A stretch of DNA of 43,665 nucleotides, from assembly GCA_009773565.1 (NCBI GenBank), contig WSXY01000015.1:1-43665 (forward strand). Reading direction: 5' to 3'. The notes below the pieces were generated by a model. The model was not told the origin of the DNA, searched no databases, and saw nothing but the letters and a program-made list of their open reading frames with translations. Positions 4,781 to 21,497 of the stretch are shown in pieces. Each line of letters opens with the position of its first letter. Position 1 is the first letter of the stretch. Both the position numbers and the translations under genes were made by a program. Origin of the DNA: Actinomycetota bacterium. Lineage in GTDB: Bacteria; Actinomycetota; Coriobacteriia; Anaerosomatales; Anaerosomataceae.

Positions 4781-4820
4781 GGTGTGAGCCCTTCTGATTG
4801 AAGCATCAAACACTAACGTG

Positions 4821-4848
4821 ATTATATGATTAATCACAAAGAAGGCAA
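4821..4848 (-). promoter_or_regulatory. fic promoter with palindromic operator candidate
   Basis: Read on the minus strand: -35 TTGCCT (4848-4843), 16-bp spacer, perfect -10 TATAAT (4826-4821). The spacer holds the perfect 10-bp palindrome TGATTAATCA (4827-4836). The AT-rich patch stands out in this GC-rich region. The palindrome may be an operator, perhaps for the winged-helix part of the Fic protein itself (inference). Confidence 0.65.
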
Positions 4849-4885
4849 GAGCGGCTCCATTCTCGACTCGGATCGGAGCGCCCCA

Positions 4886-5025
4886 GATTTGTTGCCCGAT
4901 TTGTTGCCCAAATACATGGTACTTGCTGGTACTCGTTGGTACCTATTGGGACTCGCCGCAGCTCCGCTGTACCAACGAGTCCCAACGAGTCCCAATAGTC
5001 ACAAGCACTTTCAGGATTCGAATTC
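4886..5025 (+). repeat. array repeat, copy 2 (TTG variant, core truncated at GAATTC)
   Basis: Both 12-mers read GATTTGTTGCCC (4886-4909), so they agree with each other but differ from the TCG and GTG types. The hairpin follows (about 4918-5002) and the core TCAGGATTCGAATTC ends similarity at 5025. It sits directly upstream of fic on that gene's opposite strand and closes the fic block. Confidence 0.9.
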
Positions 5026-5109
5026 AGCTTAGAGGGGGTGTATCTGCCCACGTGCGGCTCAGGAGCACTCCCTGTTGCTCACAGTCCTGTTGGCCTTGCC
5101 TGCCCGCAC

Positions 5110-5133
5110 GTTCAAATCCCGTCAGCTCGATCA
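5110..5133 (+). other. tRNA- or tmRNA-3'-end-like fragment (possible old attachment site)
   Basis: GTTCAAATCCCGTCAGCTCG (5110-5129) plus ATCA resembles a T-arm plus acceptor 3' strand, closest in my reading to a tmRNA 3' end (...CCCGYCAGCTCCACCA). Bases upstream of the T loop do not pair with the 3' stem strand, as expected for a recombined fragment and not a working RNA. It lies 85 bp after repeat copy 2 and has a different sequence from that repeat's core, so it may be the scar of another integration. Confidence 0.35.
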
Positions 5134-5170
5134 TCACGATTGCGAGCACACTTGCGTGCTCTTTGAAACG

Positions 5171-5200
5171 AAACGGGACGGCCAGATGGCCGTCCCGTTT
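5171..5200. terminator. strong hairpin between repeat copy 2 and the AraC gene
   Basis: AAACGGGACGGCC and GGCCGTCCCGTTT form a perfect 13-bp stem with an AGAT loop. The A/T at both ends of the stem allow termination in either direction. It lies about 57 bp past the stop of the minus-strand AraC gene and is probably that gene's terminator. A smaller hairpin (GAGCAC...GTGCTC) lies just to its left (about 5144-5161). Confidence 0.75.
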
Positions 5201-5256
5201 CACATTCCTGTCCGGCGGTTGCGGGCGTGCCCGACGGTTGACTTGGCAGTGAGGCG

Positions 5257-6132
5257 CTACTGGGGCAGCGCCACCCGGTCCGACGCGGGTGTCACTCCAA
5301 ACATGCGCCGGTACTCGCGGCTGAACTGCGTCGAGCTTGCGTAGCCCACACGCTGTGCCGCCTCCTGGGCTGTCACGCCCTCGGCGGTGAGCAGCGCGCG
5401 GGCGCGGTGGAGGCGGACCTGCTTGACGTACTGCACAGGCGTGGTGGCGGTCACTTCCCGGAAGGTGTGGTGGAAGGTTGATGTGCCCATGTTCGCCTCG
5501 CGGGCCAGTGATGGGACGTCCAGGTCGTGGGCGTAGTCCTGATGGATGCGGCGGAGCACCCTGGCGATGTGGCCGTAGCGGCCAGCGTTCGACGTGGCGA
5601 GGCGCAGCACCTCGCCGTTCTCGCTCACCAGGATGCGATAGACGATCTCGCGCACGGTCTGCAGGCCGAGGATCCGCGCGTCTGCAGGGGAGGCGAGCGC
5701 GAGAGCGAGTCGCTCGGCGGCGTCCATCACCTCGGCGGTGAACGGCGATGAGTTCACGAATGTTGAGGGTTCGATGCCGGGGATGTCGCCCATCTCCAGG
5801 AGGAGCTCGCCCACGAGGATGGGGTCGATGTTGATCACGAGGCCGAGGAGCGGTTCGTCCTCGGAAGCCGTGGTTGCGCACTCCATGGGCATGGGTGCGG
5901 AGAGCAGCAGGTAGTTGTTCGCGTCGTACACGTACGATTCGTCGCCGAGCCACACGCGCTTGGAGCCCTGCGCCACTATGACGATCCGCGGCGTGTAGAT
6001 GATCGGGCGCCGGTCCGTGCGCTCGGTGGCACGCATGTACTCGACGCCGGACACGGGCGAGCGCGAGAAGCCGTTTACCTTGATGAGCGGTTCCAGCAGT
6101 TCGGCGAGGCGGGTCTTGGCGGCATTCGGCAT
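5257..6132 (-). CDS. AraC-family regulator, YqhC-like, divergent from yqhD
   Basis: A 291-residue regulator with an N-terminal AraC_N-type cupin domain (about 20-175, with the VWLGDESYVYDANNYLLLSA block) and a C-terminal double HTH (about 190-285: DVPSLAREANMGTSTFHHTF, then AQEAAQRVGYASSTQFSREY). It is transcribed away from the yqhD operon. In E. coli the AraC protein YqhC sits beside and activates yqhD-dkgA in response to reactive aldehydes; the same neighbourhood here supports the same role. It is strongly similar along its whole length to the AraC gene at 13022-13894, the first gene of the next block. ATG6132 follows GAAGGAA. Confidence 0.85.
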   Translation of the reverse strand: MPNAAKTRLAELLEPLIKVNGFSRSPVSGVEYMRATERTDRRPIIYTPRIVIVAQGSKRVWLGDESYVYDANNYLLLSAPMPMECATTASEDEPLLGLVINIDPILVGELLLEMGDIPGIEPSTFVNSSPFTAEVMDAAERLALALASPADARILGLQTVREIVYRILVSENGEVLRLATSNAGRYGHIARVLRRIHQDYAHDLDVPSLAREANMGTSTFHHTFREVTATTPVQYVKQVRLHRARALLTAEGVTAQEAAQRVGYASSTQFSREYRRMFGVTPASDRVALPQ

Positions 6133-6183
6133 GGGGCAATTCCTTCACGTGAGATGCAGTGGACGAGATACTACGCCGCACAA

Positions 6184-6203
6184 GAGAAATAGGCAAGAAC
6201 GAC
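6184..6203. promoter_or_regulatory. candidate AraC/YqhC-type operator in the divergent promoter region
   Basis: GAAATAGGCAAGAACGAC lies between the AraC gene and yqhD. A close relative (GGAATAGGCTACGAATCGAC) occurs at 13949-13966 in the same position relative to the paralogous AraC gene, and both precede divergently transcribed oxidoreductase or hydrolase genes. Conservation between two otherwise unrelated intergenic regions makes it a good binding-site candidate. Confidence 0.5.
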
Positions 6204-6291
6204 GCAGTCCTGTGTATGGGATTGAGCGGGAGTCGCTAGTAGGGTGTACCTCGGCACCACTCCACTCTGGACGGAAGGCAGAGGTACACGC

Positions 6292-7458
6292 ATGCTTGAT
6301 TTCGACTATCACAACCCCACGCGCATCATCTTCGGCAAGGACCGGCTCGATACGATCGGGTCGCTCGTGCCGGCCGATGCGCGGGTGCTCATCACGTACG
6401 GTGGCGGTAGCGCCAAGCGCTCGGGAATCATCGAGCGGGTGCGTGAGACGCTCGCGGGCAGAGAGGTCCACGAGTTCGGCGGGATCGAGCCGAACCCGCA
6501 GTACGACACGCTCATGAAGGCCGTCGAGGTCGTCCGTGCGGAGAACATCGACTTCCTGCTGGCGGTGGGAGGCGGCTCCGTCATCGACGGCACCAAGTTC
6601 GTCGCGCTTGCCGCGCACTACGATGGCGATGCGGCGGAACTCCTCGCGTACGGCCTCGCGCCGATCACCGCCGATGCGGCCAAGCGCGTTCTCCCGCTCG
6701 GCACGGTGCTCACGCTGCCGGCGACGGGCTCGGAGATGAACAGTGGCGCCGTGATCAGCCGCGGCGAGGTGAAGTATCCGGTGATGAGCGGCCTCGTGTT
6801 CCCGGTGTTCTCGATCCTGGATCCCACGCTCACGTTCTCGCTGCCGGAGACGCAGGTGGCGAACGGCGTGGTGGACGCGTTCGTGCACGTGACCGAGCAG
6901 TACATCACCTACCCCGTGGGCGCCGCCGTGCAGGACAGGATCGCCGAGGCGGTCCTGAAGACGCTCATCGACGTGGGACCCACCTCCGTTGCCGAGCCCG
7001 AGGACTACGCTGCACGCGCGAACCACGAGTGGAGCGCGACGCTCGCGCTGTGCGGCATCGTGGGCGCCGGCGTCCCGCAGGACTGGGCGACGCACATGAT
7101 CGGCCACACGCTCACTGCGCTCTTCGGCATCGATCACGGCAAGTCGCTCGCGATCGTGCACCCGTCGCTGCTCGATGTGCGCCGCGAGCAGAAGCGCGAG
7201 AAGCTGCTGCAGTACGCCGCTCGCGTGTGGGACCTCGACATGGGCGACGACGACGCGCGCATCGACGGAGCAATCGGCAGGACCAGGGCGTTCTTCGAGA
7301 GCCTCGGCATAGCCACACGCCTCGGCTCTTACGGCGTGACCGAGGCCGACATCCCGCGCGTCATCGAGAGCCTCGAGGCACAGGGCATGACAGCACTCGG
7401 CGAGACGGGCGATCTCACGCTCGAGCACGTGGATGCGATCCTGCGCGCTTCGCTCTAA
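6292..7458 (+). CDS. yqhD: YqhD-type iron-containing alcohol dehydrogenase / NADPH aldehyde reductase
   Basis: A 388-residue protein, almost exactly the length of E. coli YqhD and recognisably similar throughout (LITYGGGSAKRSG, FGGIEPNPQYDTLM, LLAVGGGSVIDGTKF, PATGSEMNSGAVIS, GAGVPQDWATHM). Metal ligands are the Asp and His of VVDAFVHVTEQ and the two His of THMIGHTLTALFGIDHGK. YqhD reduces many short-chain and reactive aldehydes with NADPH in the cytosol. ATG6292 aligns with the start of YqhD and follows a GGAAGG...GAGG purine run. It is the first gene of a six-gene operon (6292-12536) controlled, by inference, by the divergent AraC protein. Confidence 0.93.
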   Translation: MLDFDYHNPTRIIFGKDRLDTIGSLVPADARVLITYGGGSAKRSGIIERVRETLAGREVHEFGGIEPNPQYDTLMKAVEVVRAENIDFLLAVGGGSVIDGTKFVALAAHYDGDAAELLAYGLAPITADAAKRVLPLGTVLTLPATGSEMNSGAVISRGEVKYPVMSGLVFPVFSILDPTLTFSLPETQVANGVVDAFVHVTEQYITYPVGAAVQDRIAEAVLKTLIDVGPTSVAEPEDYAARANHEWSATLALCGIVGAGVPQDWATHMIGHTLTALFGIDHGKSLAIVHPSLLDVRREQKREKLLQYAARVWDLDMGDDDARIDGAIGRTRAFFESLGIATRLGSYGVTEADIPRVIESLEAQGMTALGETGDLTLEHVDAILRASL

Positions 7459-7494
7459 GCGACGCCGAATCACAAGATCAAAGGGGTAGATGAG

Positions 7495-8937
7495 TTGGCT
7501 TCTTCAATGAGTTCGCATCCGGGCACCGGCCGCCGTACGACGGCCGTGCTCGCGATCATCCTGGTGAGCTACGTGATGATCATCCTCGACACGTCCATCG
7601 TGATCGCGGGGCTGCCGAAGATCCAGGAGACGCTCGGTTTCTCGGCCACGCACCTCTCGTGGATACAGAGCGCGTACACGCTGGCGTTCGGCGGGTGCCT
7701 GCTGCTGGCGGCGCGTGCCGGCGATATCCTGGGACGCAGGCGGATGTTCCTCGCGGGGCTCGGGATCTTCACCGTGGCATCGCTCGGGGTCGGCACGGCG
7801 CAGACCGTCGCATGGATGCTTGCCTCGCGCGCGGTTCAGGGCGTCGGCGCGGCGATCCTGGCACCGACAACGCTGGCGCTTCTGCAGTCGAACTTCGCCG
7901 AGGGGCCGGAGCGCACCCGAGCAGTCGCCTACTATGGCGCCGCTGCGGGCATCGGCGCGAGCATCGGGCTCGTGTTGGGTGGCGTCCTCGCAGACTGGGT
8001 ATCGTGGCGTGTCGGGTTCTTCATCAACCTGCCGATCGGCGTGCTGCTGGCGTTGGGCACTGCCCGGTATGTGGCGGAGACCGAGCGGCACACGGGTCAC
8101 TTCGATCTGCGTGGCGCGATTCTGTCCACGGCGGGAATGTTCGCACTCGTCTTCGGCGTGGTGCGGTCGGCGGATACGGGATGGGCGGACGTGTCGACCG
8201 GACTCTCGCTTATGGCTGGAGTGGCCTTGCTCGTGATGTTCATTGTGAGCGAGTCGAAGGCGCGTCAGCCGATCATGCCGCTGCGGCTCTTCGCGAGCCG
8301 GGAGCGTTCCGGGGCATACGCTGGTCGTCTGCTGTTCCTTGGCGCGATGGTGGGATTCTTCTTCTTCACCACGCAGTTCATGCAGGGCGTGCTGGGCTTC
8401 GACGCGTTCCAGGCGGGTCTCGGATTCCTCCCGATGACACTGGTGAACTTCGCGGTGGCGTTGAATGTGCCGCGCCTCACGCGGCGCTTCGGTAATGGAC
8501 CACTACTCGCAGCCGGGCTGGCCATCACCTTCGTGGGGATGGCATGGCTGAGCCGTCTCGGCGCAGATTCGACGTACCTGCGCGACGTTGCGCTGCCGAT
8601 GGTTCTGATCGGCCTCGGACAGGGCTGTGCCTTGAGTCCGCTCACCGTCGCGGGTGTCAGTGGTGTAGCCGAGGAGGATGCCGGCGCCGCTTCCGGACTC
8701 GTGAACGTCGCGCACCAGCTCGGCCTGTCGCTCGGACTGAGCGCGTCGGTGGTAGCCTTCGCCAGGGCGAGTGCGGTTGCCGGAGGATCCGCAGCTCTCG
8801 CGAGCGGCGTGTCGGCGGCGCTGACGGCGGGAGCGGTCATGCTGGCGTTGTCATGGATCGTGGTGATGATGGCGATAGTCCGGCCGCGCGTGGATGGTGG
8901 ACAGCATGCCAGGACAAGCGGGGTGCAGGCGACGTGA
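7495..8937 (+). CDS. MFS drug/metabolite exporter, DHA2 (EmrB/QacA) family
   Basis: A 480-residue polytopic protein with the 14-helix layout of DHA2 transporters. It has the motif-C-like LDTSIVIAGLPKIQ segment in helix 1, GDILGRRRMFLAG (motif A) after helix 2, and IGASIGLVLGGVLAD (motif C of antiporters) in helix 5. It probably exports a toxic small molecule using the proton gradient. The TTG7495 start is placed 7 nt after AAAGGGG; an in-frame ATG7507 is the alternative. It follows yqhD by 36 bp, and its stop overlaps the ltrA-like start as GTGA, so the genes are coupled. Confidence 0.88.
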   Translation: MASSMSSHPGTGRRTTAVLAIILVSYVMIILDTSIVIAGLPKIQETLGFSATHLSWIQSAYTLAFGGCLLLAARAGDILGRRRMFLAGLGIFTVASLGVGTAQTVAWMLASRAVQGVGAAILAPTTLALLQSNFAEGPERTRAVAYYGAAAGIGASIGLVLGGVLADWVSWRVGFFINLPIGVLLALGTARYVAETERHTGHFDLRGAILSTAGMFALVFGVVRSADTGWADVSTGLSLMAGVALLVMFIVSESKARQPIMPLRLFASRERSGAYAGRLLFLGAMVGFFFFTTQFMQGVLGFDAFQAGLGFLPMTLVNFAVALNVPRLTRRFGNGPLLAAGLAITFVGMAWLSRLGADSTYLRDVALPMVLIGLGQGCALSPLTVAGVSGVAEEDAGAASGLVNVAHQLGLSLGLSASVVAFARASAVAGGSAALASGVSAALTAGAVMLALSWIVVMMAIVRPRVDGGQHARTSGVQAT

Positions 8938-10103
8938 GCACTCTTCCCGTGATCGGCAAGCGCGACGGGGTCACGCCGGTGGAACTGCTCTTCGACCTGG
9001 TCTTCGTGTTTGCGATGTCGGAGATCGCGCATCACTTGCTCGGGCATCTCACCACCCGGGGTCTGATCGAGGCGACCATCCTGCTGGTGGGGGTCTTCCT
9101 GGTCTGGCTCAACACGAGCTGGATCGCCACCGTTCTTCACGCCCAGGAACCGAGAGTACTGACGATGATCCTCGTCACCATGCTACTCAGCATGTTCATG
9201 AACGCCTCGATTGGGCGAGCCTACGGGTCGATGGGTCTCATGTTCGCGCTGCCCCTCGTCTTGGGCCAGGTGGGTAGGAGCGCTTGGATGGTCGCGGCAT
9301 CCCCAAACGAGGTGTACCGGGAGCACTACCGCAGGACGGTGGGGTGGCAGCTCATCAGCGCTCCATTGTGGCTGATCGGTGCGGTCAGTCCGCCTGAGGC
9401 GCGACTCTCGTACTGGGGAGCGGCGACCGTCATCGATCTCATCGGGACCTGGCTCGCACACCCGGTTCCTGGCCAGCGACTGCACTCGGTATACCTTGAG
9501 TTCGATGCCGACCACATGCTCGAACGCTGCAGGCTGCTTCTCATCGTCGCGTTCGGTGAGACGGTCGTTGCGATGGGAAGCGCCCTTGCGTCCTCCCGAA
9601 TGACTGGACTGACCGTGTTCGCGGGCGTCGTCGCCTTCGCCGGGATGATCGCGCTGTGGGCACTGTACTTCGGCAGTGGCGTTCGAGCCACGCTCGACCA
9701 CATCGCCCGGACGTGCGATCCGGTCAAGGCGAGCCGACTGGCCGGCAACGCCCTCGTTGTGATGGTCGCGGGGTTGATCGGAATCGCAGTGGGAAGCGAG
9801 ATCGTCATCGGTGCACCTTCGGCCCGGGGTGACTCCCTTGTCGTTGGCGCCTTGCTGTTCGGTGGTGCGATGGCCGGACTCGTGGCACACGCATGGTACT
9901 TGCGGGCCGTTCCGCGGCTCTCGGCCCGGTGGATCCTGTTCGGAGCCGCAGGTCTGGCATTCGCCGGTCTGGCGACCGCGTCTGCCCCTGGCGTTGTGCA
10001 GCTCGGGATCTGGAGTGTCGGCCTGACGGCGCTGGCGGTTGCCGACACGCGTGCGGGCAGACGATTCGATTCGGCAGATCCGCCAGTGGCGGACTGTGAC
10101 TGA
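8934..10103 (+). CDS. low temperature requirement protein A (LtrA) family membrane protein
   Basis: A 389-residue polytopic protein. The N-terminal VTPVELLFDLVFVFAMSEIA and FGETVVAMG blocks and the LLIVAFGETVV helix are typical of the LtrA family (PF06772). The biochemical function is not established for the family. The GTG8934 start overlaps the MFS stop by 4 bp, so the two membrane proteins are translationally coupled and may act together. Frames running upstream of 8934 are inside the MFS gene and were not used. Confidence 0.83.
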   Translation: MSTLPVIGKRDGVTPVELLFDLVFVFAMSEIAHHLLGHLTTRGLIEATILLVGVFLVWLNTSWIATVLHAQEPRVLTMILVTMLLSMFMNASIGRAYGSMGLMFALPLVLGQVGRSAWMVAASPNEVYREHYRRTVGWQLISAPLWLIGAVSPPEARLSYWGAATVIDLIGTWLAHPVPGQRLHSVYLEFDADHMLERCRLLLIVAFGETVVAMGSALASSRMTGLTVFAGVVAFAGMIALWALYFGSGVRATLDHIARTCDPVKASRLAGNALVVMVAGLIGIAVGSEIVIGAPSARGDSLVVGALLFGGAMAGLVAHAWYLRAVPRLSARWILFGAAGLAFAGLATASAPGVVQLGIWSVGLTALAVADTRAGRRFDSADPPVADCD

Positions 10104-10117
10104 GAGAGGACCGAACC

Positions 10118-12536
<2,419 letters not shown>

Positions 12537-12567
12537 ACCGGGCCTAATCGGGACTCGGTCTGTCCAC

Positions 12568-12721
12568 GATTTGTCGCCCGATTTGTCGCCCAAATACATG
12601 GTGACTGTTGGTACTCGTTGGTACCTATTGGGACTCACCGCAGCTCCGCTGTACCAATGAGTCCCAACGAGTCCCAATAGTCACAAGCACTTTCAGGATT
12701 CGAATTCCCTTGGGGGCACCA
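12568..12721 (+). repeat. array repeat, copy 3 (full length, with tRNA 3' end)
   Basis: Paired GATTTGTCGCCC 12-mers (12568-12591), hairpin 12601-12684 whose ends GTGACT/AGTCAC pair exactly, a central mini-hairpin CAGC-TCC-GCTG, the core TTTCAGGATTCGAATTCC, then TTGGGGGCACCA ending at 12721. The tail is a tRNA T-loop (TTCGAAT), 3' T-stem, acceptor strand and CCA. The 5' T-stem bases do not pair fully (CAGGA against TCCCT), marking the junction of element and tRNA sequence. Confidence 0.92.
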
Positions 12722-12921
12722 TAAAACCGCAGGTCAGGGGCTTGTGAATCCCTGAAGCGTGCTTGAAATCGGGCACCAAATCGTGCCGTCGTGAGGGCCC
12801 TCTAGAGGGCAGAACCGCAGCTCAGAGGCCATTTCAGCCCAATCTTGGTGCCAAAAAATCCCTGTTGCAGAGGATCGGCCATCGACATCGGCTTGGTGCC
12901 CGATTTGGTGCCCGAAACAAG
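12722..12921 (+). repeat. degenerate repeat module after copy 3
   Basis: This intergenic stretch holds decayed pieces of the array repeat. The TAAAACCGCAGGTCAGGGG start and the TCAGGG/CCCTGA hairpin follow the tRNA end. An inverted GATTTGGTGCCCGATTT occurs at about 12771-12787, a GGCAGAACCGCAGCTCAGAGG block at about 12808-12828, TTGGTGCCAAAAAATCCCTG at about 12845-12864, and direct TTGGTGCCCGATTTGGTGCC at about 12895-12914. The same blocks in the same order follow copy 4. No gene is seen here. The remaining 100 bp to the AraC stop shows nothing recognisable. Confidence 0.7.
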
Positions 12922-13021
12922 ACAAAGTGTGTGTCGGGCTCGAACACCCCCCGTCCCCGTGCGAGCACGACGGTGACCCCTGTACTCTCAATCCTGAGGT
13001 CGTTATGGAAGCAGTCGTGAC

Positions 13022-13894
13022 CTACGCGGTTGTCAGTGCCCGATCAGCTGCTGGACTCACGCCGAACATACGCCGGTACTCGCGTCCGAACTGGGACGGG
13101 CTAACGTAACCGACGCTGTACGCGGCTTCTTGGACACTCACGCCCTCTGACATGAGGAGCGTCCGAGCGCGGTGCAGTCTCGTTTGCTTGATGTACTGCA
13201 GCGGTGTCGTAGAGGTCACGTCGCGAAATGCGTGATGGAATGTCGACGTTCCCATGTTCGCCTCGCGGGCTAGAGAAGACACATCGAGTTCCGATGCGTA
13301 GTCATCATGAATGCGTCGCAAGACGCGAGCGATCTGTCCCTGTCGGCCCGAACTGGTCGCGACCATTCGAACGGTGTCGCCCTGAGGTCCGAGCAGTGCA
13401 TGGAACACAATCTCTCGGATGATCTGCCTGCCGAGGATCCGCGCATGAAGCGGTGAGTTCAAGACCGATGCGAGGCGGGTCGCCGCATCCAGGAGGTCGT
13501 GCGTGACGTTCGTCGCGCCCACGACGCGTGCTTGTTTCTCGTCGGTGGGTCGGTGATCGGTGTCCAGCAAGAGCTCGCCCACGGTGATTGGGTCTAGCTC
13601 GATCGTGAGGGCGAGCAGTGGTTCTCCGGGTGTAGGCGTCGCCTCACAGTCCATCGGCATGGGAGCCGAAAGAACTAGGTAGTTGTTGGCGTCATAGTCG
13701 AAGCGTTCCTCGCCAAGCCACACGCTCTTACGTCCCCGGGCGATGACGATCACAGAGGGCGAGTACATCATCGGGGTCCGAGGAATCCGCTCGTCAAACC
13801 GTGAGACTGTCACTCCCGGGATGGCCGTGGCCGTCTGCCCGGACTTGGGAGCGAGCTGCGAGATCAGTTCTGCGAGTTCCGTTGATTGGGGCAT
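13022..13894 (-). CDS. AraC-family regulator, paralogue of the YqhC-like protein
   Basis: A 290-residue protein with the same domains as the regulator at 5257-6132: AraC_N cupin (VWLGEERFDYDANNYLVLSA) and a C-terminal double HTH (DVSSLAREANMGTSTFHHAF, then SVGYVSPSQFGREYRRMFG). The two are similar from end to end, and both are the first gene after a repeat, on the minus strand, with a divergent enzyme gene. It probably controls the hydrolase/FMN-reductase pair at 14004-15541. The inducer is unknown; paralogy suggests a reactive carbonyl or related electrophile. Confidence 0.85.
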   Translation of the reverse strand: MPQSTELAELISQLAPKSGQTATAIPGVTVSRFDERIPRTPMMYSPSVIVIARGRKSVWLGEERFDYDANNYLVLSAPMPMDCEATPTPGEPLLALTIELDPITVGELLLDTDHRPTDEKQARVVGATNVTHDLLDAATRLASVLNSPLHARILGRQIIREIVFHALLGPQGDTVRMVATSSGRQGQIARVLRRIHDDYASELDVSSLAREANMGTSTFHHAFRDVTSTTPLQYIKQTRLHRARTLLMSEGVSVQEAAYSVGYVSPSQFGREYRRMFGVSPAADRALTTA

Positions 13895-13946
13895 GTCGTC
13901 CTCTATTCCGTAAGTACCTCAACGGGGCAATCATACCGTAGGCGAC

Positions 13947-13966
13947 AGGAATAGGCTACGAATCGA
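13947..13966. promoter_or_regulatory. candidate AraC-type operator upstream of the second AraC gene
   Basis: AGGAATAGGCTACGAATCGA lies 53 bp upstream of the AraC start and about 40 bp before the hydrolase. It shares the GAAATAGGC-A-GAA-CGAC pattern with the site at 6184-6203. Confidence 0.5.
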
Positions 13967-14003
13967 CAACCACTGACCTTCCTACTGCAGGAAGCAGCAC
14001 GTA

Positions 14004-15008
14004 TTGTCGACAGCATCAGATGCCTCTCGGATTGCGAGACACAAGACTAGGAATGGAGTGGTGAAGGTGGACGACTACATCTTCGATTTGCGGCCTGATG
14101 TGACCCGTAAGCCGGTCTCATACAAGAACCGCTACGGAATCACGATTGCAGCGGACCTCTATCTGCCGCGTGATTTCGATGAGTCGACGAGCCATGCGGC
14201 GCTCGTCATCGGCGCACCGTACGGCGGCGTCAAGGAGCAGGGACCTGGCATCTACGCGCAGGAGATGGCGGCACGCGGGTTCGTCGCGTTGACGTTCGAC
14301 CCGTCGTTCAATGGATACAGTGGTGGCGAGCCGCGCTACGTGACGTCCCCTGACATCTTCGTCGAGGACATCAGCGCCGGCGTCGACTTCCTGGGTACAC
14401 GACCGTTTGTGGACCGCGAGCGCATCGGTGCCATCGGCATGTGCGGAAGCGGTGCCTTCAGCTTGTGTGCCGCACAGGTCGACCGTCGCATCAAAGCCGT
14501 CGCGACGACCAGCATGTGGGACCATCACCGCTTCTACCACGAGGGCTGGGAAGACTGCTATACCGACGAAGACCGCAACAAGATCCTCGACGACTTGGGC
14601 GAGCAGCGCTACGTCGACTTCGAGAACCCACAGCCTGCGCTGACACCACGTGACGCTCCGTTCGTGGACGAGAACACCGACGACATTGGCCGGGAGTTCG
14701 GCGAGTTCTACTCGGCTCCTCGTGGATCCCATCACAACGCGTTGACTCAGCACACCCGCACGAGCGTTCTGTCGTTCATGAACTTCCCGCTGCTCGCGTA
14801 CGTACACACCATCTCTCCGCGTCCGATCCTCATCGTCGTGGGCGAGAAGGCTTTCTCCCGCTACCTCGGCGAAGGTGCCTTCGAGAAGGCTGCTGAGCCC
14901 AAAGAGCTCTACATCGTTCCTGGCGCCGGCCATGTCGATCTGTATGACAAGACCGACCTCATCCCGTTCGACAAGCTCGAAGCGTTCTTCAAGGAGAACT
15001 TGGCGTGA
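14004..15008 (+). CDS. alpha/beta hydrolase, YcjY-like, cysteine in the nucleophile elbow
   Basis: A hydrolase of up to 334 residues. The nucleophile elbow reads IGMCGSGAFSLCAAQ, with Cys where most family members have Ser, as in dienelactone hydrolases. GAGHVDLYD supplies the catalytic His near the C-terminus. An N-terminal PVSYKNRYGITIAADLYLPRDF block is typical of the YcjY/S15-like group often found beside AraC regulators. The function is probably ester or lactone hydrolysis; the substrate is unknown. TTG14004 gives the longest form. GTG14058 or GTG14061, just after AGGAATGGAG, are credible starts that would remove 18-19 residues. The stop overlaps the FMN reductase start as GTGA. Confidence 0.8.
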   Translation: MSTASDASRIARHKTRNGVVKVDDYIFDLRPDVTRKPVSYKNRYGITIAADLYLPRDFDESTSHAALVIGAPYGGVKEQGPGIYAQEMAARGFVALTFDPSFNGYSGGEPRYVTSPDIFVEDISAGVDFLGTRPFVDRERIGAIGMCGSGAFSLCAAQVDRRIKAVATTSMWDHHRFYHEGWEDCYTDEDRNKILDDLGEQRYVDFENPQPALTPRDAPFVDENTDDIGREFGEFYSAPRGSHHNALTQHTRTSVLSFMNFPLLAYVHTISPRPILIVVGEKAFSRYLGEGAFEKAAEPKELYIVPGAGHVDLYDKTDLIPFDKLEAFFKENLA

Positions 15009-15541
15009 AAGTAGTCGTCATCAGCGGTAGCTATCGCCGGAAGGGAGCTTCGGCATTCTTGGCGGATCGGTTCATCGATGGAGCCCGCGAAGCGGGTCAT
15101 GAGGTGTTCCGGTTTGATGCTGCCTTCGAGACCGTTGGTGGCTGCCGAGGTTGCGATTACTGTGCGCGAGGAACGAAGCCGTGCGTGCAGAACGACGGGA
15201 TGTCCGTCTTGAATCCGCACCTTGTGGATGCAGACTTCGTCGCATTCGTGACGCCGCTTCACCACTTCCACATGTCGGCGCAGCTGAAGGCGGTGATCGA
15301 CCGGTTCTACGCGAACGATGCCCGACTGATGGGAGGTAAGCGGGCGGTGTTGCGGGCAACAGCCAAGAGCGGGAGTTCGCGGACCATTCAAGGGCTGGTC
15401 GACTCGTACATGACAATCATCAGGTATCTGAGTTGGGCAAACGCCGGCGAAGTGCTGGCGCTTGGGTGCGGCGATCGCAATCTCATCGAGGTCTCAGTAT
15501 TTCCAGACGCTGCGTGTCGGCTGGGAGTGAGCCTGAAGTAG
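15005..15541 (+). CDS. NADPH-dependent FMN reductase / iron-sulfur flavoprotein-like
   Basis: A 178-residue flavodoxin-fold protein with the FMN phosphate loop VVISGSYRRKGAS at the N-terminus, then a Cys-rich GGCRGCDYCARGTKPCVQND block as in the NADPH-dependent FMN reductase/iron-sulfur flavoprotein family, and FVTPLHHFHMSAQLKAVIDR for flavin contacts. The Cys spacing (CxxCxxC...C) could hold an Fe-S cluster or serve redox chemistry. GTG15005 overlaps the hydrolase stop, so the two are coupled, probably acting on one substrate. The following 264 bp to repeat copy 4 holds no recognisable gene. Confidence 0.83.
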   Translation: MKVVVISGSYRRKGASAFLADRFIDGAREAGHEVFRFDAAFETVGGCRGCDYCARGTKPCVQNDGMSVLNPHLVDADFVAFVTPLHHFHMSAQLKAVIDRFYANDARLMGGKRAVLRATAKSGSSRTIQGLVDSYMTIIRYLSWANAGEVLALGCGDRNLIEVSVFPDAACRLGVSLK

Positions 15542-15805
15542 GCGGATAGCACTGGGTCATGTGCGGCGTCATCGCGGTTGCCGCCGAGTTGGTTCGGGCG
15601 ACGACGAAGGCAGTTCGTGACACATAGGGCACAACAGGATCGCTTCTACCGATCTGACCACTACTTGTACGGGGACTCTTAATCCCAAGGTCACTGCTCG
15701 AAAGCCCCCCGTGAGCGGGTCCACTGAGTCCGGCCCTCCAACGCCGTCACATCGTCGCGGAGGGCAGTCGACTGAATGTTCTCGACGACGCTCTGCCATG
15801 CCCTC

Positions 15806-15959
15806 GATTTGGTGCCCGATTTGGTGCCCAAATACCTGGTGACTGTTGGTACTCGTTGGTGACTATTGGGACTCACCGCAGCTCCGCCGTACCAACGAGT
15901 CCCAATAGTCACCAACAGTCACCAACACAATCAGGATTCGAATTCCCTTGGGGGCACCA
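15806..15959 (+). repeat. array repeat, copy 4 (GTG variant, altered hairpin units)
   Basis: Paired GATTTGGTGCCC 12-mers (15806-15829), hairpin arms (about 15839-15926), core TCAGGATTCGAATTCCCTTG and tRNA end GGGGGCACCA to 15959. The hairpin units differ from other copies: the left arm has GTTGGTGACT in place of GTTGGTACCT, and the right arm has GTCACCAAC twice. The new left unit still pairs with the new right unit over 20 bp (GTTGGTGACTATTGGGACTC). Confidence 0.92.
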
Positions 15960-16250
15960 TAAAACCTCAGGTCAAAGGCCTGAAATTCCCTGTTGCGTGC
16001 ATAGAATCGGGCTACAATTTGGGTCCGGATTTCGTCGTTTTGGGGCCTCATTGGGGGCAAAGCCGCAGGTCAGAAGCCATTTCAGCCCCAATTTGTCGCC
16101 CAAAAATCCCTGTTGCTGATAATCGGAGTGCGAGATCGAGTTGTCGCCCGATTTGTCGCCCAAATACGCGGCGAAAGGTCGGGCTGCGATACCGATGTCG
16201 CCTGCTCACTTGAAACCCGATCCATGAGAGCAAAGCCGCAGCTCAGAGGC
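15960..16250 (+). repeat. degenerate repeat module after copy 4
   Basis: This region parallels 12722-12921. It has TAAAACCTCAGGTCAAAGG, a TTGGGGGCAAAGCCGCAGGT block at about 16054-16073 resembling a damaged tRNA end plus flank, AATTTGTCGCCCAAAAATCC at about 16089-16108, and TTGTCGCCCGATTTGTCGCC at about 16141-16160. A last GCAAAGCCGCAGCTCAGAGG lies at about 16230-16249. These look like stacked remnants of earlier repeat copies. No gene is supported in this stretch. Confidence 0.7.
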
Positions 16251-16288
16251 ATGAAAGGCGGTCGTCTTCTTGGCCCAGCGACCGTCAC

Positions 16289-16358
16289 TTGCGATTGCTG
16301 TTGTCTGGAAGTAGTATGTTGTGCATGATGCGCAACACAACCACTTCAGACAACAGCA
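16289..16358 (+). promoter_or_regulatory. promoter and long inverted-repeat operator of the AbiE-like pair (leaderless transcript likely)
   Basis: -35 TTGCGA (16289-16294), 17-bp spacer, -10 TAGTAT (16312-16317) puts the transcription start near 16324-16325, on the ATG. A 31-bp imperfect inverted repeat (16296-16326 against 16328-16358; outer 12 bp TGCTGTTGTCTG perfect, inner TGTTGYGCAT) covers -10 and start codon. AbiEi antitoxins are known to repress by binding inverted repeats at their own promoter, so this is a strong operator candidate. Confidence 0.7.
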
Positions 16359-17407
16359 CATTCTCTCGGGCGCTCGACGAACTTCGCTCGCGCCTACCCC
16401 AGACGTGGCGCGTGGACGTCATCGATCAGCGGGCCTATCTCCCCGGGCCGGACGCGGTCGTGCGTGTCGCCGGACCGGACGGGCAAGCGTCGATCCTGTT
16501 GATAGAGGTGAAGAGTCGGCTCGATCCCAAAGACGTCGACCCGCTCGTATCTCGATTCGAGATGCGACTCTGGCAGAACAGTGAAGCGACCCCGGTCGTT
16601 GTGGCTCGCTACCTCGGCGAACGGACGCGCGAGTCTTTGCGCGCGCGGGAAGCCGGCTACATCGACCTGACTGGCAACATGTACCTGCGACTCAATGCTC
16701 CGGCCGTGGCGATCGAGCGGGCCGGCGCCGACAAGGATCCCGAGCCGACGCAGCGTCCCGCGCGCTCTCTGAAGGGGGCCAAGGCCGGTCGGCTCGTGAG
16801 GACGCTCGCGGACTTCACCCCGCCGCTCGGAACACGTGAAATCGCGAAGATCGCGCAAATCGACGCCGGCTACGTCTCGCGTCTGCTCGCGCTGCTCGAA
16901 CGAGACGACTACATAGGGCGCGAACCTCGCGGCCCGGTCACCCGCATCGACTGGCCCAACCTTCTCCGCGCGTGGACCAAGGACTACTCGCTCGATTCCT
17001 CCAACCTTGCCACGTCCTATCTGCAGCCTCGAGGCCTTCCGGCGTTGCTGGACGGCCTGCGCCGGCAGGACAGCGAGGATGGTCTGACCTACGCGATCTC
17101 CGGCTCGCTTGCCGCCGCTCGGCGGGCTCCGATCGCTCCGGCACGCCTCGGTGTCGTCTACGTCGAGCGCCTCGACGAGGCCGCGCAAGTGCTCGGTCTG
17201 CTCCCCGCCGAGACCGGGGCGAATGTGCTTCTCGTCGAGCCGTTCGACAGCGTCGTCTTCGAGCGCACGGTTCTCGACGAGGGCTTGAGGTACGTGGCCC
17301 CTTCGCAGATCGCCGCCGACCTGCTCACGTCTTCCGGCCGCGGGCCGGAAGAAGCGGAAGCGCTCATCGAGTGGATGCTCTCCGACGAGGAGGCCTGGCG
17401 TGTATAG
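16325..17407 (+). CDS. AbiEi-like antitoxin/regulator: PD-(D/E)xK-like domain plus winged helix
   Basis: A protein of about 360 residues. The N-terminal third has a nuclease-fold pattern (PDAVVRVAG, then SILLIEVKSRLDP: Asp, Glu and Lys spaced as in PD-(D/E)xK proteins). The middle (about 150-205) has winged-helix features (LGTREIAKIAQIDAGYVSRL). It overlaps by 8 bp the nucleotidyltransferase gene, the toxin-like partner, which is the arrangement of AbiE type IV toxin-antitoxin operons. Predicted role: DNA-binding antitoxin that represses the operon. The PD-(D/E)xK-like domain is not part of classical AbiEi, so a direct nuclease or RNA role is possible. ATG16325 or ATG16328 is chosen because the promoter predicts a leaderless message. 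Confidence 0.65.
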   Translation: MMRNTTTSDNSTFSRALDELRSRLPQTWRVDVIDQRAYLPGPDAVVRVAGPDGQASILLIEVKSRLDPKDVDPLVSRFEMRLWQNSEATPVVVARYLGERTRESLRAREAGYIDLTGNMYLRLNAPAVAIERAGADKDPEPTQRPARSLKGAKAGRLVRTLADFTPPLGTREIAKIAQIDAGYVSRLLALLERDDYIGREPRGPVTRIDWPNLLRAWTKDYSLDSSNLATSYLQPRGLPALLDGLRRQDSEDGLTYAISGSLAAARRAPIAPARLGVVYVERLDEAAQVLGLLPAETGANVLLVEPFDSVVFERTVLDEGLRYVAPSQIAADLLTSSGRGPEEAEALIEWMLSDEEAWRV

Positions 17408-18269
17408 CGAGGAGTACGTCGTCGCCCGCAGGACTCTTCTCGACGCGCTCGATGCACTCGAGGGCCACCGCGACGCACTCGTGCTCGTCGGCGCGCAGGC
17501 GATCTACCTCCACACCGGCGCCGCCCAGTTCGCCGTCGCCGAGTTCACGACTGATGGCGACGTCGCCATCGACCCGCGCCTTCTGTCGGGTGATCCCGAG
17601 ATCGCTTCGGCGATGCGCAAGGCCAAGTTCTTTCTCGATGAGCGCGACGGCAGGGAACTGGTGGGCGTGTGGGCCTCGATGCGAGAGATTGCCGGCGTGC
17701 CTGCGAAGGTGACCGTCGATCTTCTCGTGCCCGACGCCCTCGGGGGCGCAGGGCGGCGAGCCGCCCGGGTGCCACAGCACGAGAAGGGCTCGATGCTCAA
17801 GGTCCACGGGTTAGAGGCGGCGCTGGTGGACAATATCGTGATGGGCATCGGTGCGCTCGAAGTGACGGATACACGCAGCTTCTCCATGAAGGTGGCCGGT
17901 CCCACGGCACTGCTGATCTCCAAGACGATCAAGCTGTCCGAGCGGGTGACGGCCGGTGCGCTCGAACGAGGACGACCCGACAGAGTGAAGCCCAAGGATG
18001 CACTTGACGTGCTTCGACTGTTGCAGGCGATCCCGAGCGTTCGGCTGGCTGAGGGCATTGCGGGTCTGTTGGAAGATGAGACTGCCGGGCCCGTCACCTC
18101 AGAGGCGCTCAGCAAACTGCCGGATCTCTTCGGCAACCCCGACTCTCCAGGCAGTCAGCTCGCGGCCGAGGCAGCAGCGCCAGAGCCGCCCGACGTGATC
18201 GCAGCATCGTGCGCCGCGCTGTGTCGAGAGCTGCTTGACGCACTCCGCGCGCAGGGAATTGACGGCTGA
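17400..18269 (+). CDS. nucleotidyltransferase, AbiEii/MNT-like (probable toxin)
   Basis: A 289-residue protein. An N-terminal nucleotidyltransferase motif LVGAQAIYLHTG (about residues 27-38) is followed by TTDGDVAID (about 50-58), giving the hG..(x)n..DxD pattern of the pol-beta-like superfamily used by AbiEii toxins. The C-terminal half is helical (KTIKLSERV, KDALDVLRLLQAI), as expected. AbiEii-type enzymes transfer nucleotides to tRNA or another target and stop growth. GTG17400 overlaps the antitoxin gene end (8 bp), ensuring co-translation. The pair is the only cargo of this block, and repeat copy 5 begins 68 bp later. Confidence 0.7.
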   Translation: MYSEEYVVARRTLLDALDALEGHRDALVLVGAQAIYLHTGAAQFAVAEFTTDGDVAIDPRLLSGDPEIASAMRKAKFFLDERDGRELVGVWASMREIAGVPAKVTVDLLVPDALGGAGRRAARVPQHEKGSMLKVHGLEAALVDNIVMGIGALEVTDTRSFSMKVAGPTALLISKTIKLSERVTAGALERGRPDRVKPKDALDVLRLLQAIPSVRLAEGIAGLLEDETAGPVTSEALSKLPDLFGNPDSPGSQLAAEAAAPEPPDVIAASCAALCRELLDALRAQGIDG

Positions 18270-18337
18270 TCCACGATGCCCACGTTCGCTCCGGGGGGCC
18301 TTGGTTGCTGGGTGAGATGATCATTCAGCACGCCCCA

Positions 18338-18462
18338 GATTTGTCGCCCGATTTGTCGCCCAAATACATGGTGACTGTTGGTACTCGTTGGTACCTATTG
18401 GGACTCACCGCAGCTTCGCTGTATCAACGAGTCCCAACGAGTCCCAATAGTCACAAGCACAA
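18338..18462 (+). repeat. array repeat, copy 5 (core missing, fused to a truncated gene)
   Basis: Paired GATTTGTCGCCC 12-mers (18338-18361) and hairpin (18371-18454) match copy 3 closely. After AAGCACAA similarity stops: the GGATTCGAATTC core and tRNA end are absent. The next base pairs belong to a minus-strand CPBP gene that is cut at this point. Confidence 0.88.
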
Positions 18463-18559
18463 TTCCTGCCCCCGCGAGGACCAGCGGCAGCCAGATGAGC
18501 CACGACCACGCGAACGTGACCACGAAGAACCGGTAGGGGAACCGCTTGTCCTCTGCCAT
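18463..18559 (-). pseudogene. 5' fragment of a CPBP intramembrane protease gene, cut by repeat copy 5
   Basis: The ATG at 18559 overlaps the hydrolase stop as ATGA, so this was the next gene of the operon. Only about 32 residues remain (MAEDKRFPYRFFVVTFAWSW, then LIWLPLVL), typical of the first helix of a CPBP/CAAX protease. At about 18462 the sequence becomes repeat copy 5, and the frame runs on into it to a stop at 18395. The catalytic EExxxR and HxxxN motifs are lost. The break gives the exact boundary between foreign block and repeat. Confidence 0.7.
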
Positions 18560-19713
18560 CAGTCCTCCTCGCTGGGGTCCGCGAGCCCGTTTGCGCCTGC
18601 CAGTACATCCGCCCGCATTATCTCGCACGTCTTCGCAGGCTCCTCGAACAGCGGGCTGTGCGCCGAGTGCTCGAACGTGTAGAAGCCCTTCAGCGGCGCG
18701 TCCAACTGCTCGTAGTAGGCCCTCGCCAGCGGATACGAGACGGTGTAGTCGTACGTGCCGTGCAGGAAGTAGATGGGGATCTCCAGCCGCGTGACCCTCT
18801 TGGTCAGGTCCGTCGCGAGCTCGACGCTCCACAGCTGTCTGCCGGAGACGATCTTGCCGCGCCACACGCTAATCTTCTCGCCCAGCGTATACTCCGGGCT
18901 TCGGAAGGACTCCAGGAGCAGACCGGTGACGATTGAGCGCATGTCGTGGGTCGTGCCGACGCCGAGGTCGTGCATCGCGACGTCACGGATCGAGTTGTAC
19001 GTGTCCGGCAGGGGGACCGAGTCACCGACCGCCGCTGCCTCCAGCTTCCGCGCCATGCCGGCGTTCCCGTTCGCTTCGAAGCGCTCGAGCATGTAGTCGT
19101 GCGCCAACTGCTCAGAGCGGAGCTGGTAGGACATCTGGGCAACGCCGATGTAGGCGTGGTACTTCTCCGGCGCCCGCGCGGCCGCCTGGATGCCGATGAA
19201 GGTGCCGCCCGAGTGCCCCATGAGGTAGATCTTGTCCTGGTCGAAGCGTTTGCGGAGGTAATCGGTCAGCGCCAGCGTGTCGGCCACGACCTGCTCCGCT
19301 GTCAGGGACTCCGGTGCCATGCCTGGGTTGAAAGACAGGCCCGAGCCGCGCTGCTCCCACCAGACCACGACGAAGTCCTCGTCGAGACCTGTGGGGTAAC
19401 GCTCGGTCAGGAAGTAGTCAGGCATGCCGCCATGGAGGTAGAGCAGCACCGGCTTACTCGCGCCCTTGCCCTTAATGAACATGCCCTGCTCGACACCGTT
19501 GATGGTGACGCGGGTCTTCTCCGAGATGCTGTCCGGCAACGGGCTCCCGTTGTCATCCACGAATGGCGTCGGCCGTCCTGGACTCAGGAGGAGCAGCACG
19601 CCCACAAGAACGAGTGCCGAAACCAGCAAGACGGAAGCGGCGATCAACATTACACACCCGACCTTTCGTGCGAACGTTTGGGCAGACGGCCCACGGCCTT
19701 CGCCACTAACCAT
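18559..19713 (-). CDS. membrane-anchored alpha/beta hydrolase (proline-iminopeptidase-like)
   Basis: A 384-residue protein with an N-terminal membrane anchor (about residues 15-45, VLLVSALVLVGVLLLL) and an exported alpha/beta hydrolase domain. LYLHGGMPDYF is the oxyanion-hole HGG motif, VVWWEQRGSGLS the following strand, LMGHSGGTFIG the nucleophile elbow (GHSGG), IYFLHGTYDYTV carries the acid and FEHSAHSPLFEEP the His. HGG plus WWEQRGSG resembles prolyl-aminopeptidase-like hydrolases. ATG19713 overlaps the upstream DUF4386 stop (ATGA), and the 3' end overlaps the truncated CPBP start in the same way. A longer start at 19776 is unlikely. Confidence 0.82.
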   Translation of the reverse strand: MVSGEGRGPSAQTFARKVGCVMLIAASVLLVSALVLVGVLLLLSPGRPTPFVDDNGSPLPDSISEKTRVTINGVEQGMFIKGKGASKPVLLYLHGGMPDYFLTERYPTGLDEDFVVVWWEQRGSGLSFNPGMAPESLTAEQVVADTLALTDYLRKRFDQDKIYLMGHSGGTFIGIQAAARAPEKYHAYIGVAQMSYQLRSEQLAHDYMLERFEANGNAGMARKLEAAAVGDSVPLPDTYNSIRDVAMHDLGVGTTHDMRSIVTGLLLESFRSPEYTLGEKISVWRGKIVSGRQLWSVELATDLTKRVTRLEIPIYFLHGTYDYTVSYPLARAYYEQLDAPLKGFYTFEHSAHSPLFEEPAKTCEIMRADVLAGANGLADPSEED

Positions 19714-20399
19714 CACTCGGTCTCCGGTCGTCTGTCGAGGGCTCGCACCATGACGATCCCGAGCCACAAGAACCACACGATCTGCAGCAGTCCGAACGCG
19801 GCTTCCAGTCCGCTCAACGCAGGCACCACTGAGAGGATCCCGGCTGCGCCGATTACCACACCCAGCCAGTTCAGGGCGCGTGGGAACACCTTCGCGCTAA
19901 GTGCGGTTGCGTTCAAGAGCAGAAACCAAACTCCGCCGAGGACTTCGCCACCGGATCCGCCCAGGGCCGAAGCTACGGGCTCGATCACCTGCCACGCCGC
20001 CACAGCCTGATCGGGGGCGGTGGCGTAGAGCCGGACCACCACTCCCATGCCGTAGTTGAACACCATGACGCTTGCCAGCAGAAGGCCGGCCCGAATGAGT
20101 CCCACGACCGTTGCGAACTGCGCTGTCGACGGCGCGTACTCCTTCAGGCGCTGGTGGATCGCCAGCGTCACAACGATCAGCGCGAGTGCGACGAACTCGA
20201 ACGAGACGACGTGCATCCAGTACATGCTGGCGTAGTTGTCCCTGAGCGAGATGACCTTCTGGATCGGGTCGACCACGCCGGGGTAGTTCACCAGGAAGAC
20301 GAAGTAGGGGATCGCCGCGAGGTACGCCACCGCGATGTAGAGTGCCGCGATACCGCCTGCCCTCTGCATCGCCGCACGGGCTCGAGCGTGTGCATCCAT
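19713..20399 (-). CDS. DUF4386-like six-helix membrane protein
   Basis: A 228-residue polytopic membrane protein. Helices are seen around AALYIAVAYLAAIPYFVFLV, FEFVALALIVVTLAI, VVGLIRAGLLLASVMVF, GGVWFLLLNATAL, WLGVVIGAAGILSVV and FGLLQIVWFLWLGIVM, with the conserved final W-G region of DUF4386 proteins. Function unknown. ATG20399 is four bases after the previous gene's stop, so the genes are coupled. It is the third gene of the operon downstream of the MalT-like regulator. Confidence 0.65.
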   Translation of the reverse strand: MDAHARARAAMQRAGGIAALYIAVAYLAAIPYFVFLVNYPGVVDPIQKVISLRDNYASMYWMHVVSFEFVALALIVVTLAIHQRLKEYAPSTAQFATVVGLIRAGLLLASVMVFNYGMGVVVRLYATAPDQAVAAWQVIEPVASALGGSGGEVLGGVWFLLLNATALSAKVFPRALNWLGVVIGAAGILSVVPALSGLEAAFGLLQIVWFLWLGIVMVRALDRRPETE

Positions 20400-20403
20400 G
20401 TGA

Positions 20404-21108
20404 CTACGCCTGGCTCTCGGCAACGGAGGCCAGTGCCCGCTGATCGAACCCCTTGGCGATCAACCAGATGGCCAGCGCCATCTCCTGGAGACCGATCGGG
20501 ATGTTGAGCACTGTGTTCACCGTCGTGAAGCCGAACTCCTGCGTGAAGCCCGCGATTACGGTCGAAACCATGAACAACATGATCGCGACGAGTCCCCAAC
20601 CCGACAGCCAGCGGGGAACGAGCCGCGACCTGTAGAGCACGACGTAGTACATGAATGCTCCAACGCCGAACGGGAGCAGCGCGAAGAACCCATGCACCCA
20701 CTCGCGCGCCGCGAGCACCAGATTCGAGGTCGTCATCGCCGAGGACAAGCCGGCGGAGCCTGCTGCTACAGCACCCTGACCCACAGTCAGCAGCGCAAGC
20801 AGCCCGAGGGCCCCGACCACGACGAACACGGCTTCGACCAACCTGCCGGCGACCGATCCAAGGGCCAGAGCCGGGTTGAGCTTCTTTAGGATCGGATACA
20901 GTCCGACGGCGATGCCCGCACCGGTCAGTGCCCACACGAACTCGATGAGCGCGGTCATCACCACGCGGTCTTCGTTCGCCACCAACTTGGCGATATCGAC
21001 GGGGGTGACCAGCGCACCGCCCAGTGGGACGATGCTCAGGATCGACGTTGCCGAGCACAGGATGAACAGGACCCCTACCGCGATCGCGCTTCCTCTGTAC
21101 GTTCGCAT
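20404..21108 (-). CDS. DUF4386-family membrane protein
   Basis: A 234-residue integral membrane protein with the DUF4386 layout: first helix with GVLFILCSATSILSIVPLGG, LIEFVWALTGAGIAVGLYPI, FVVVGALGLLALLTVGQG, FFALLPFGVGAFMYYVVLYR followed by SRLVPRWLSGWGL (the most typical family block), and two more helices. Function unknown. A textbook Shine-Dalgarno (AGAAGGAG) precedes ATG21108, one base after the end of the small gene at 21110. Frames extending to 21189 add an uninformative basic leader and were rejected. Confidence 0.78.
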   Translation of the reverse strand: MRTYRGSAIAVGVLFILCSATSILSIVPLGGALVTPVDIAKLVANEDRVVMTALIEFVWALTGAGIAVGLYPILKKLNPALALGSVAGRLVEAVFVVVGALGLLALLTVGQGAVAAGSAGLSSAMTTSNLVLAAREWVHGFFALLPFGVGAFMYYVVLYRSRLVPRWLSGWGLVAIMLFMVSTVIAGFTQEFGFTTVNTVLNIPIGLQEMALAIWLIAKGFDQRALASVAESQA

Positions 21109-21109
21109 C

Positions 21110-21394
21110 TCAATCTCCTTCTTCTGTTGGTTGTGGCGCCGGGTCGGCTTCAAGGCGATTGACCGAGACGAGCGGTATACCCAGGTCACGCACCTTCGTG
21201 AGGAGTCCGTGCAGCGCGGCCTGGTCGACTACGGCGCCCGTTAGGAGCGTGTCGCCGTTGTCTTCCAGTGCGATCGACAGGCCCGAGAACCAGCTTGTCC
21301 ACGCGTGTCCGAGATGGCCTTCGATCCTGATCTGGTAGACCGCGGGCCAAACCGGGTCTGTTCTCTCGCCTCGCCGCTCTGCCACTGTCCTCAT
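21110..21394 (-). CDS. small soluble protein, unknown role, regulator-linked
   Basis: A 94-residue protein with a conserved-looking core: YQIRIEGHLGHAWTSWFSGL, SIALEDNGDTLLTGAVVDQA and ALHGLLTKVRDLGIPLVSVN. I recall similar small proteins (EGHL...W..WF.GL...G.VVDQAALHGLL) beside LuxR-type or other regulator genes; their function is unknown to me. It is the first gene after the LuxR-type regulator, separated by 103 bp that should hold the operon promoter, and is followed immediately by the DUF4386 genes. ATG21394 is chosen; a longer frame reaches 21562 but overlaps the regulator gene. Confidence 0.65.
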   Translation of the reverse strand: MRTVAERRGERTDPVWPAVYQIRIEGHLGHAWTSWFSGLSIALEDNGDTLLTGAVVDQAALHGLLTKVRDLGIPLVSVNRLEADPAPQPTEEGD

Positions 21395-21497
21395 CGCCCT
21401 TGCCACCGGTTGAGGCGTCCAGGTGCGCCGCCTGGAAGAGCATGGGCGCGCGCCAGTACACTGACATCGGTCGAAGGGACTACTCAGGGGACTAATC

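Follow-up and report, generated by a model that had tools for sequence, protein, structure and literature searches.

The repeat, its cassettes and their distribution

The window, the whole 43,665-nt stretch analysed here (contig WSXY01000015.1, assembly GCA_009773565.1), contains a row of gene cassettes that all end in the same repeat (Table 1). Six copies of this 219-nt repeat family were counted, all on the + strand; the initial annotation had numbered copies up to five. Its description of copy 3, a pair of 12-mers followed by inverted 10-bp units, was recovered at the same place far beyond chance, and the mini-stem that it drew at the centre is present. The start that it gave, 12568, is correct, but the unit does not end at 12684 and continues through the tRNA-Glu 3' end to 12721. 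Read in TTGG phase, the left units of copy 3 are ATGGTGACTG, TTGGTACTCG, TTGGTACCTA, and TTGGGACTCA, and the inverted right units are CCAATGAGTC, CCAACGAGTC, CCAATAGTCA, and CAAGCACTTT. The asymmetry between the arms, said to be conserved, is common to copies 1, 2, 3, and 5, but the right arms of copies 4 and 6 differ.

Table 1. Positions of the repeat copies, the parts of copy 3, the cassettes and tRNA-Val in the window
Feature	Positions	Strand	Remarks
Predicted att repeat, copy 1	3375..3515	+	core broken after GGATTCGAATTCC
Cassette with Fic protein (3593-4837, -)	3516..4885	.	
Predicted att repeat, copy 2	4886..5025	+	core broken after GGATTCGAATTC
Cassette: AraC regulator, MFS, LtrA, flavodoxin, two aldo/keto reductases	5026..12567	.	
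Predicted att repeat, copy 3 (the repeat under study)	12568..12721	+	made up of the 12-mer pair, the array of 10-bp units, and the core from tRNA-Glu
Two direct 12-mers GATTTGTCGCCC, putative integrase arm-type (P) sites	12568..12591	+	adjoining
Left array, 10-bp units TTGG-N6, first unit ATGG	12598..12637	+	
16-bp centre CCGCAGCTCCGCTGTA with mini-stem CAGC-TCC-GCTG	12638..12653	.	kept across copies
Right array, inverted 10-bp units CCAA-N6	12654..12693	-	
Core GGATTCGAATTCCCTTGGGGGCACCA	12696..12721	+	26 bp, identical to the 3' end of tRNA-Glu(TTC)
Cassette: AraC regulator, hydrolase, FMN reductase	12722..15805	.	left end: inverse 12-mer at 12771, 12-mer at 12902
Predicted att repeat, copy 4	15806..15959	+	GTG-type 12-mers; longest perfect palindrome
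Cassette: 372-aa ORF, weak nucleotidyltransferase-like ORF	15960..18337	.	
Predicted att repeat, copy 5	18338..18463	+	core lost
Cassette: alpha/beta hydrolase, DUF4386, LuxR/MalT-type regulator	18464..24398	.	
Predicted att repeat, copy 6	24399..24540	+	one intact 12-mer; final repeat before tRNA-Val
tRNA-Val(TAC)	32234..32308	+	distal chromosomal edge of the array; neighbour of tRNA-Glu in empty genomes

The 53 cassettes that we measured range from 1.3 to 30 kb (median 4.3 kb), with the repeat at the end of each. Their cargo includes Fic (SoFic-like), AbiE-type and Mads-like genes, metal-transporting ATPases, and oxidoreductases with AraC regulators. Entire cassettes are common to different genera while their neighbours differ. 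For example, the Fic cassette of the window is nearly identical over ~1355 nt to one in another genus (G015) with different neighbours, and the cassette at 15960-18337 also occurs in four other genomes at 83-88%. A search for the tyrosine integrase family (PF00589) gave no match in the cassettes of the window's genome (G000) or in the arrays read from G008, G013, G015, G018, G039, and G001; a single partial match falls in the G007 region, in a gap of 40 kb that contains no repeats.

G000 (2.27 Mb, 25 contigs) has at least 11 repeat copies plus fragments, on contigs C20 (the window contig), C7, and C1. Repeat matches were found in 35 genomes from 22 genera (199 relatives searched), and the loci read in relatives, which belong to the order Anaerosomatales, class Coriobacteriia, yielded about 99 copies. 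When a 21-nt pattern from the centre was compared with 84,980 species genomes, the matching records were titled Actinobacteria, Actinomycetota, Coriobacteriia or Anaerosomatales, the sole exception being one titled Aeromicrobium sp. The placement of the repeat in one order rests on these record titles together with the "same order" kinship of the 199 relatives. The pattern had no exact match in viral contigs, which leaves a viral origin unsupported. Groundwater and other uncultured actinobacteria carry rows of cassettes, each closed by a copy of the repeat. Literature searches on the order and on tRNA-Glu elements in Coriobacteriia gave no description of this array, and the text of the paper describing Anaerosomatales gave no hit for integrase, mobile or genomic island.

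Three integron attC-like sites lie at the start of the contig, around a CAAX-protease cassette (window 648-743, 1008-1103, and 1889-1984). Contig C3 has an integron-integrase-like gene (C3:99749) and similar attC-like sites near its end. A chromosomal integron may therefore adjoin the array.

The tRNA-Glu core and the neighbouring integrase

In G000, the 26-bp core is found nowhere but at tRNA-Glu (C1:79914) and within the repeats. At att sites used by tRNA-integrating tyrosine integrases, the core is characteristically identical to the target tRNA's 3' end. A tRNA and Rfam family search of the window matched tRNA-Val alone, passing over the repeats because they contain merely the 3' end of a tRNA. 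In genomes without repeats, the genes for tRNA-Lys, tRNA-Glu, and tRNA-Val are contiguous, with a Glu-Val gap of ~85-110 bp (L229, L234, and L235); in occupied genomes, the arrays sit between tRNA-Glu and tRNA-Val. We infer that C1, C7, and C20 are pieces of one split locus.

A perfect core is kept in 80 copies. Four broken cores part from the consensus at core positions 13-16, directly after GGATTCGAATTC (window 3503-3515 and 5014-5025, and two repeats of L063). This hints at strand exchange in the T-loop, and exchange probably takes place within the core, at TTCGAAT. The three of the six window copies that have broken cores are probably immobile.

Two further observations concern this tRNA. 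A second, unrelated sequence class, GACCTGCRACAATGC ... GAAACCCCC, lies upstream of the same tRNA-Glu core in L099, L100, and L068 (core near 4248) and probably represents the half-site of another family of elements that uses this tRNA as well. Near tRNA-Val, some relatives also have another tRNA-Glu-like gene whose 3' end is similar (GGAGATTCGAATTCTCCTGGGGGCACCA; L236 14479-14555, L042, and L084).

A tyrosine integrase gene overlaps the 3' end of tRNA-Glu in G000 (L022). Relatives at ~90% identity occur in seven other genomes, all repeat-bearing, and the gene overlaps tRNA-Glu in all eight loci, as would be expected of the cognate integrase of the core. The frame is open and accompanied by attL arms in most of the eight, while the G045 copy has an internal TGA. 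More distant integrases (27-44% identity) at other sites have no obvious tandem 12-mers of the same kind.

A 45-53 kb element adjoins the integrase in the four genomes that were read, and in all four its far end is the repeat. In G000, it encodes a MobP3 relaxase (172.7 bits, cut-off 150), RadC-like, ParA, ParB-like and NlpC/P60 proteins, a VirB4-like ATPase, TrbL, and a CD1115-type coupling protein (T4CP; 296.4 bits, cut-off 250). The element also encodes an O-like replication protein, and a sortase/SpaA-type protein, scanned from G001, is conserved. Judged by these genes, which include integrase, relaxase, T4CP, and T4SS components (VirB4-like and TrbL), the element is an ICE. A conserved intergenic region upstream of its relaxase (G000 C1 ~67660-68300, within L209) carries AGAGAACGCAGGATAAGC, the complement of which holds an RP4-like nic motif (GCTTATCCTGCG) that is invariant in four ICEs; we regard this region as a candidate oriT. 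Truncated relatives of the coupling protein start right after some repeats (G018 region 50680-51819; G000 C7, locus L052), which suggests that the cassettes in question are decayed ICEs.

A closely related integrase is kept in only 8 of ~30 repeat-bearing genomes, and several cores are broken. Furthermore, near-identical cassettes may differ in the 12-mer variant of their right repeat. The half-site does not, therefore, travel strictly with its cassette, and gene conversion between copies must also act. All of this would suit an entirely passive history, in which the array is an ancient remnant, reshuffled solely when its 130-bp repeats undergo homologous recombination or gene conversion with one another. 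However, the 80 perfect cores, the open integrase frames with their attL arms, and the nearly identical Fic cassette in two genera among different neighbours argue against it, and we consider such a history rather unlikely.

The 12-mer pairs and the 10-bp unit array

The 12-mers occur on both sides of the core, 116 and 128 bp before it in the repeat and 32 and 44 bp after it beside the integrase, the latter in all eight loci and with the members of a pair alike at the variable positions. Variation falls at positions 7-8 (TC, GT, TT or TA). The two members of a pair agree in 76 of 82 copies against 37% expected, the maximum in 10,000 shuffles being 46. This concerted variation fits slippage and conversion, as the same cassette junction can carry GTG/GTG in one genome and TCG/TCG in another. 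Their concordance and their place on both sides of the core support a role as arm-type sites, and the 12-mers are best read as sites to which the integrase would bind. The initial annotation had suggested arm-type sites, and this suits the 12-mers; applied to the 10-bp units it fails, with triple TTGG arrays absent both from the interior of the ICE and from the flank of the core that faces the integrase. We dropped the 12-mer variant as a marker of integrase specificity, as a single ICE can have different variants at its two ends (in G000 and G018, TCG next to the integrase and GTG at the far end).

The cassettes have the attR-type repeat throughout. Of 83 copies, 33 have an exact 12-mer in the 230 bp that follow the core, or 50 if one mismatch is allowed, and many cassettes hold 12-mers at set post-core positions, in particular +50 in inverted orientation and ~+171/181/191/201 in direct orientation. 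The attP of the excised ICE would read, in order, arm pair (-128, -116), 10-bp array, core, arm pair (+32, +44), and integrase.

Between the outer arm pair and the core, the TTGG/CCAA columns are nearly invariant (mean entropy 0.07 versus 0.46 in other columns, p = 1.6e-5). The arm-to-core distance is 116 bp in 71 copies, 106 in 6, 96 in 2, and 126 in 1, that is, it changes in steps of 10 bp. The earlier proposal that a 10-bp period places binding sites on one face of the DNA fits both results.

The other proposal compared the repeat with attC sites. On this reading, polarity would be set by mismatches conserved in a hairpin of the folded bottom strand, and the cassettes would be moved by an integron-type recombinase. 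The copies do fold well as single-stranded DNA, with z-scores of -2.9 to -8.1 for the six window copies; the arm asymmetry recurs in many copies, the cassettes all share one orientation, and the same genome appears to have a real integron with attC-like sites and an IntI-like gene. However, the arms do not coevolve. Swapping arms between copies yields folds about as good as those of the native pairs (14 of 60 permutations for RNA, 6 of 60 for DNA), and RNAalifold did not recover the long hairpin, giving one covarying cell that 200 of 500 permutations equalled. Covariation among copies from relatives, the check put forward with the proposal, is thus at permutation level. In addition, the repeat has no attC boxes (R, L) when read by eye, the 26-bp tRNA core and the paired 12-mer arms belong to the double-strand type of integrase site, and the associated recombinase is the ICE integrase, which scores 28 bits against a cut-off of 265 for integron integrases. 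We therefore regard an attC-like site as highly improbable. The invariance of TTGG, the 10-bp steps, and the lack of coevolution between arms indicate that the selected feature resembles a protein contact at each helical turn rather than base pairing. One repeat has lost 10-bp units, a loss named at the outset as a potential counterexample if the element stayed mobile: the G056 site (L111, arm at 4826), which is degraded, has kept only the outermost inverted repeat and none of the inner units.

Inverted repeats are typical of oriT, and the array ends every cassette although the cassettes are without transfer genes. It could accordingly be the oriT of the ICE, or another single-strand signal beside the att site, that makes every cassette mobilisable. 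Against this stand the lack of coevolution, the tight coupling of the array to the core at fixed 10-bp-stepped spacing, and the nic motif found upstream of the MobP3 relaxase, which together make an oriT role very unlikely. Tandem 10-bp units also look like centromere-like (parS) or iteron sites, and the ICE encodes ParA, a ParB-like protein, and the O-like replication protein; one of the latter two might bind the array and so keep the excised circle. But the array lies exactly between the arm-type pair and the core, it is kept in minimal cassettes without par genes, and no second array was seen near the par genes, and so we find this role unlikely. Triple TTGG arrays are confined to the att repeats, with none within four ICEs. 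We also looked through the rest of the ICE for a copy of the array with an autoregulatory role, and there was none.

The repeat appears to fit an array contacted once per helical turn, by a protein that bends DNA or acts in excision, better than it fits an attC-like fold. The ICE directionality factor RdfS is bound at one protomer per 10 bp (PMC11963761). A conserved 170-aa protein of the ICE has a weak excisionase match (E = 5.5e-4) and consists of two homologous halves (34% identity; Smith-Waterman score 101 versus a shuffled maximum of 48), making it a candidate binder of the TTGG array. We give a directionality factor on the array roughly even chances.

Proposed mechanism and comparison with known systems

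Taken together, we consider it very probable that the repeat is the P-arm (attR) half-site of a tRNA-Glu(TTC) tyrosine integrase in a system of ICE and CIME-like cassette accretion. The ICE integrase would insert at the 3' end of tRNA-Glu(TTC), with the 12-mer pair as its arm-type sites and the 26-bp core as the place of strand exchange. A DNA-bending recombination directionality factor would most likely load onto the inverted TTGG-N6 array, with a subunit at every helical turn. The stretch between tRNA-Glu and tRNA-Val would have filled up with the ICE and, in tandem with it, integrase-less cassettes that each close with the same half-site. Movement of the cassettes is presumably due to the ICE integrase, acting in trans or, when they travel with the ICE, in cis. 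The sequences themselves establish the anatomy of the att site, its anchoring at tRNA-Glu, the link to the integrase, the lack of a tyrosine integrase in the cassettes (but for the partial match in G007), and the occurrence of the same cassettes in different genera. The att-site and array reading is well supported, whereas the identity of the protein on the TTGG array and movement of cassettes in trans are plausible. More tentatively, the system might be a double-stranded, tRNA-anchored counterpart of the integron, in which the ICE integrase shuffles cassettes in trans through the shared half-site, conversion homogenises the 12-mers and 10-bp units, and genera exchange an order-wide pool of cassettes.

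The array suggests a major hot spot of gene acquisition in a widespread, barely cultured subsurface order, and the repeat would show how uncultured actinobacteria collect and swap genes. An integrase open to testing and a candidate for the directionality factor are now named, the half-site is defined exactly, and the TTGG-N6 array is a clear test case for the loading of a directionality factor at one subunit per turn.

In the attP sites of lambda and mycobacteriophage L5, arm-type sites flank the core and leave room between for a bending or directionality factor. The site described here, like these and the att site of ICEMlSymR7A (PMC11963761), has arm sites on both sides of the core and room between arm and core for such a factor. 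It differs from all three in its intervening inverted TTGG-N6 array in exact 10-bp register and in 12-mers that vary in concert. With integron attC cassettes it shares a same-orientation array and a conserved palindromic site ending each cassette. However, it has a tRNA core and arm-type sites without covariation, and its 1.3-30 kb cassettes have their own regulators and genes on both strands. With no conserved single-strand hairpin, no R/L boxes on reading by eye, and an associated integrase far below the integron-integrase cut-off, the array is not an integron relative.

CIMEs have lost integration and transfer genes, keep attL/attR, and stand in tandem with an ICE at one site, as in the ICESt1 type of Streptococcus thermophilus (PMC5704250). 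The array likewise consists of tandem elements beside an ICE that, on the basis of the PF00589 search, are without integration and transfer genes, and the system works like ICE and CIME accretion and for the most part fits its definition. Unlike the ICESt1 type, it has seven or more cassettes in a single row, occurs in numerous genera of the order, involves an ICE at tRNA-Glu that is unrelated, and has a half-site with a 10-bp unit array. The nearest large arrays known to us are the Dehalococcoides ssrA islands, many of which lie in tandem downstream of one RNA gene with a direct repeat of its 3' end at each, some without an integrase (PMC3146451). Both systems are tandem islands at one RNA gene with 3'-end repeats, but the Dehalococcoides islands are mobilizable elements with a serine recombinase (CcrB-like; PMC3146451), whereas the array described here is linked to an ICE tyrosine integrase. 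Large cassette arrays can thus form around a tRNA-specific ICE integrase, which invites a natural comparison with integrons and the Dehalococcoides ssrA islands.
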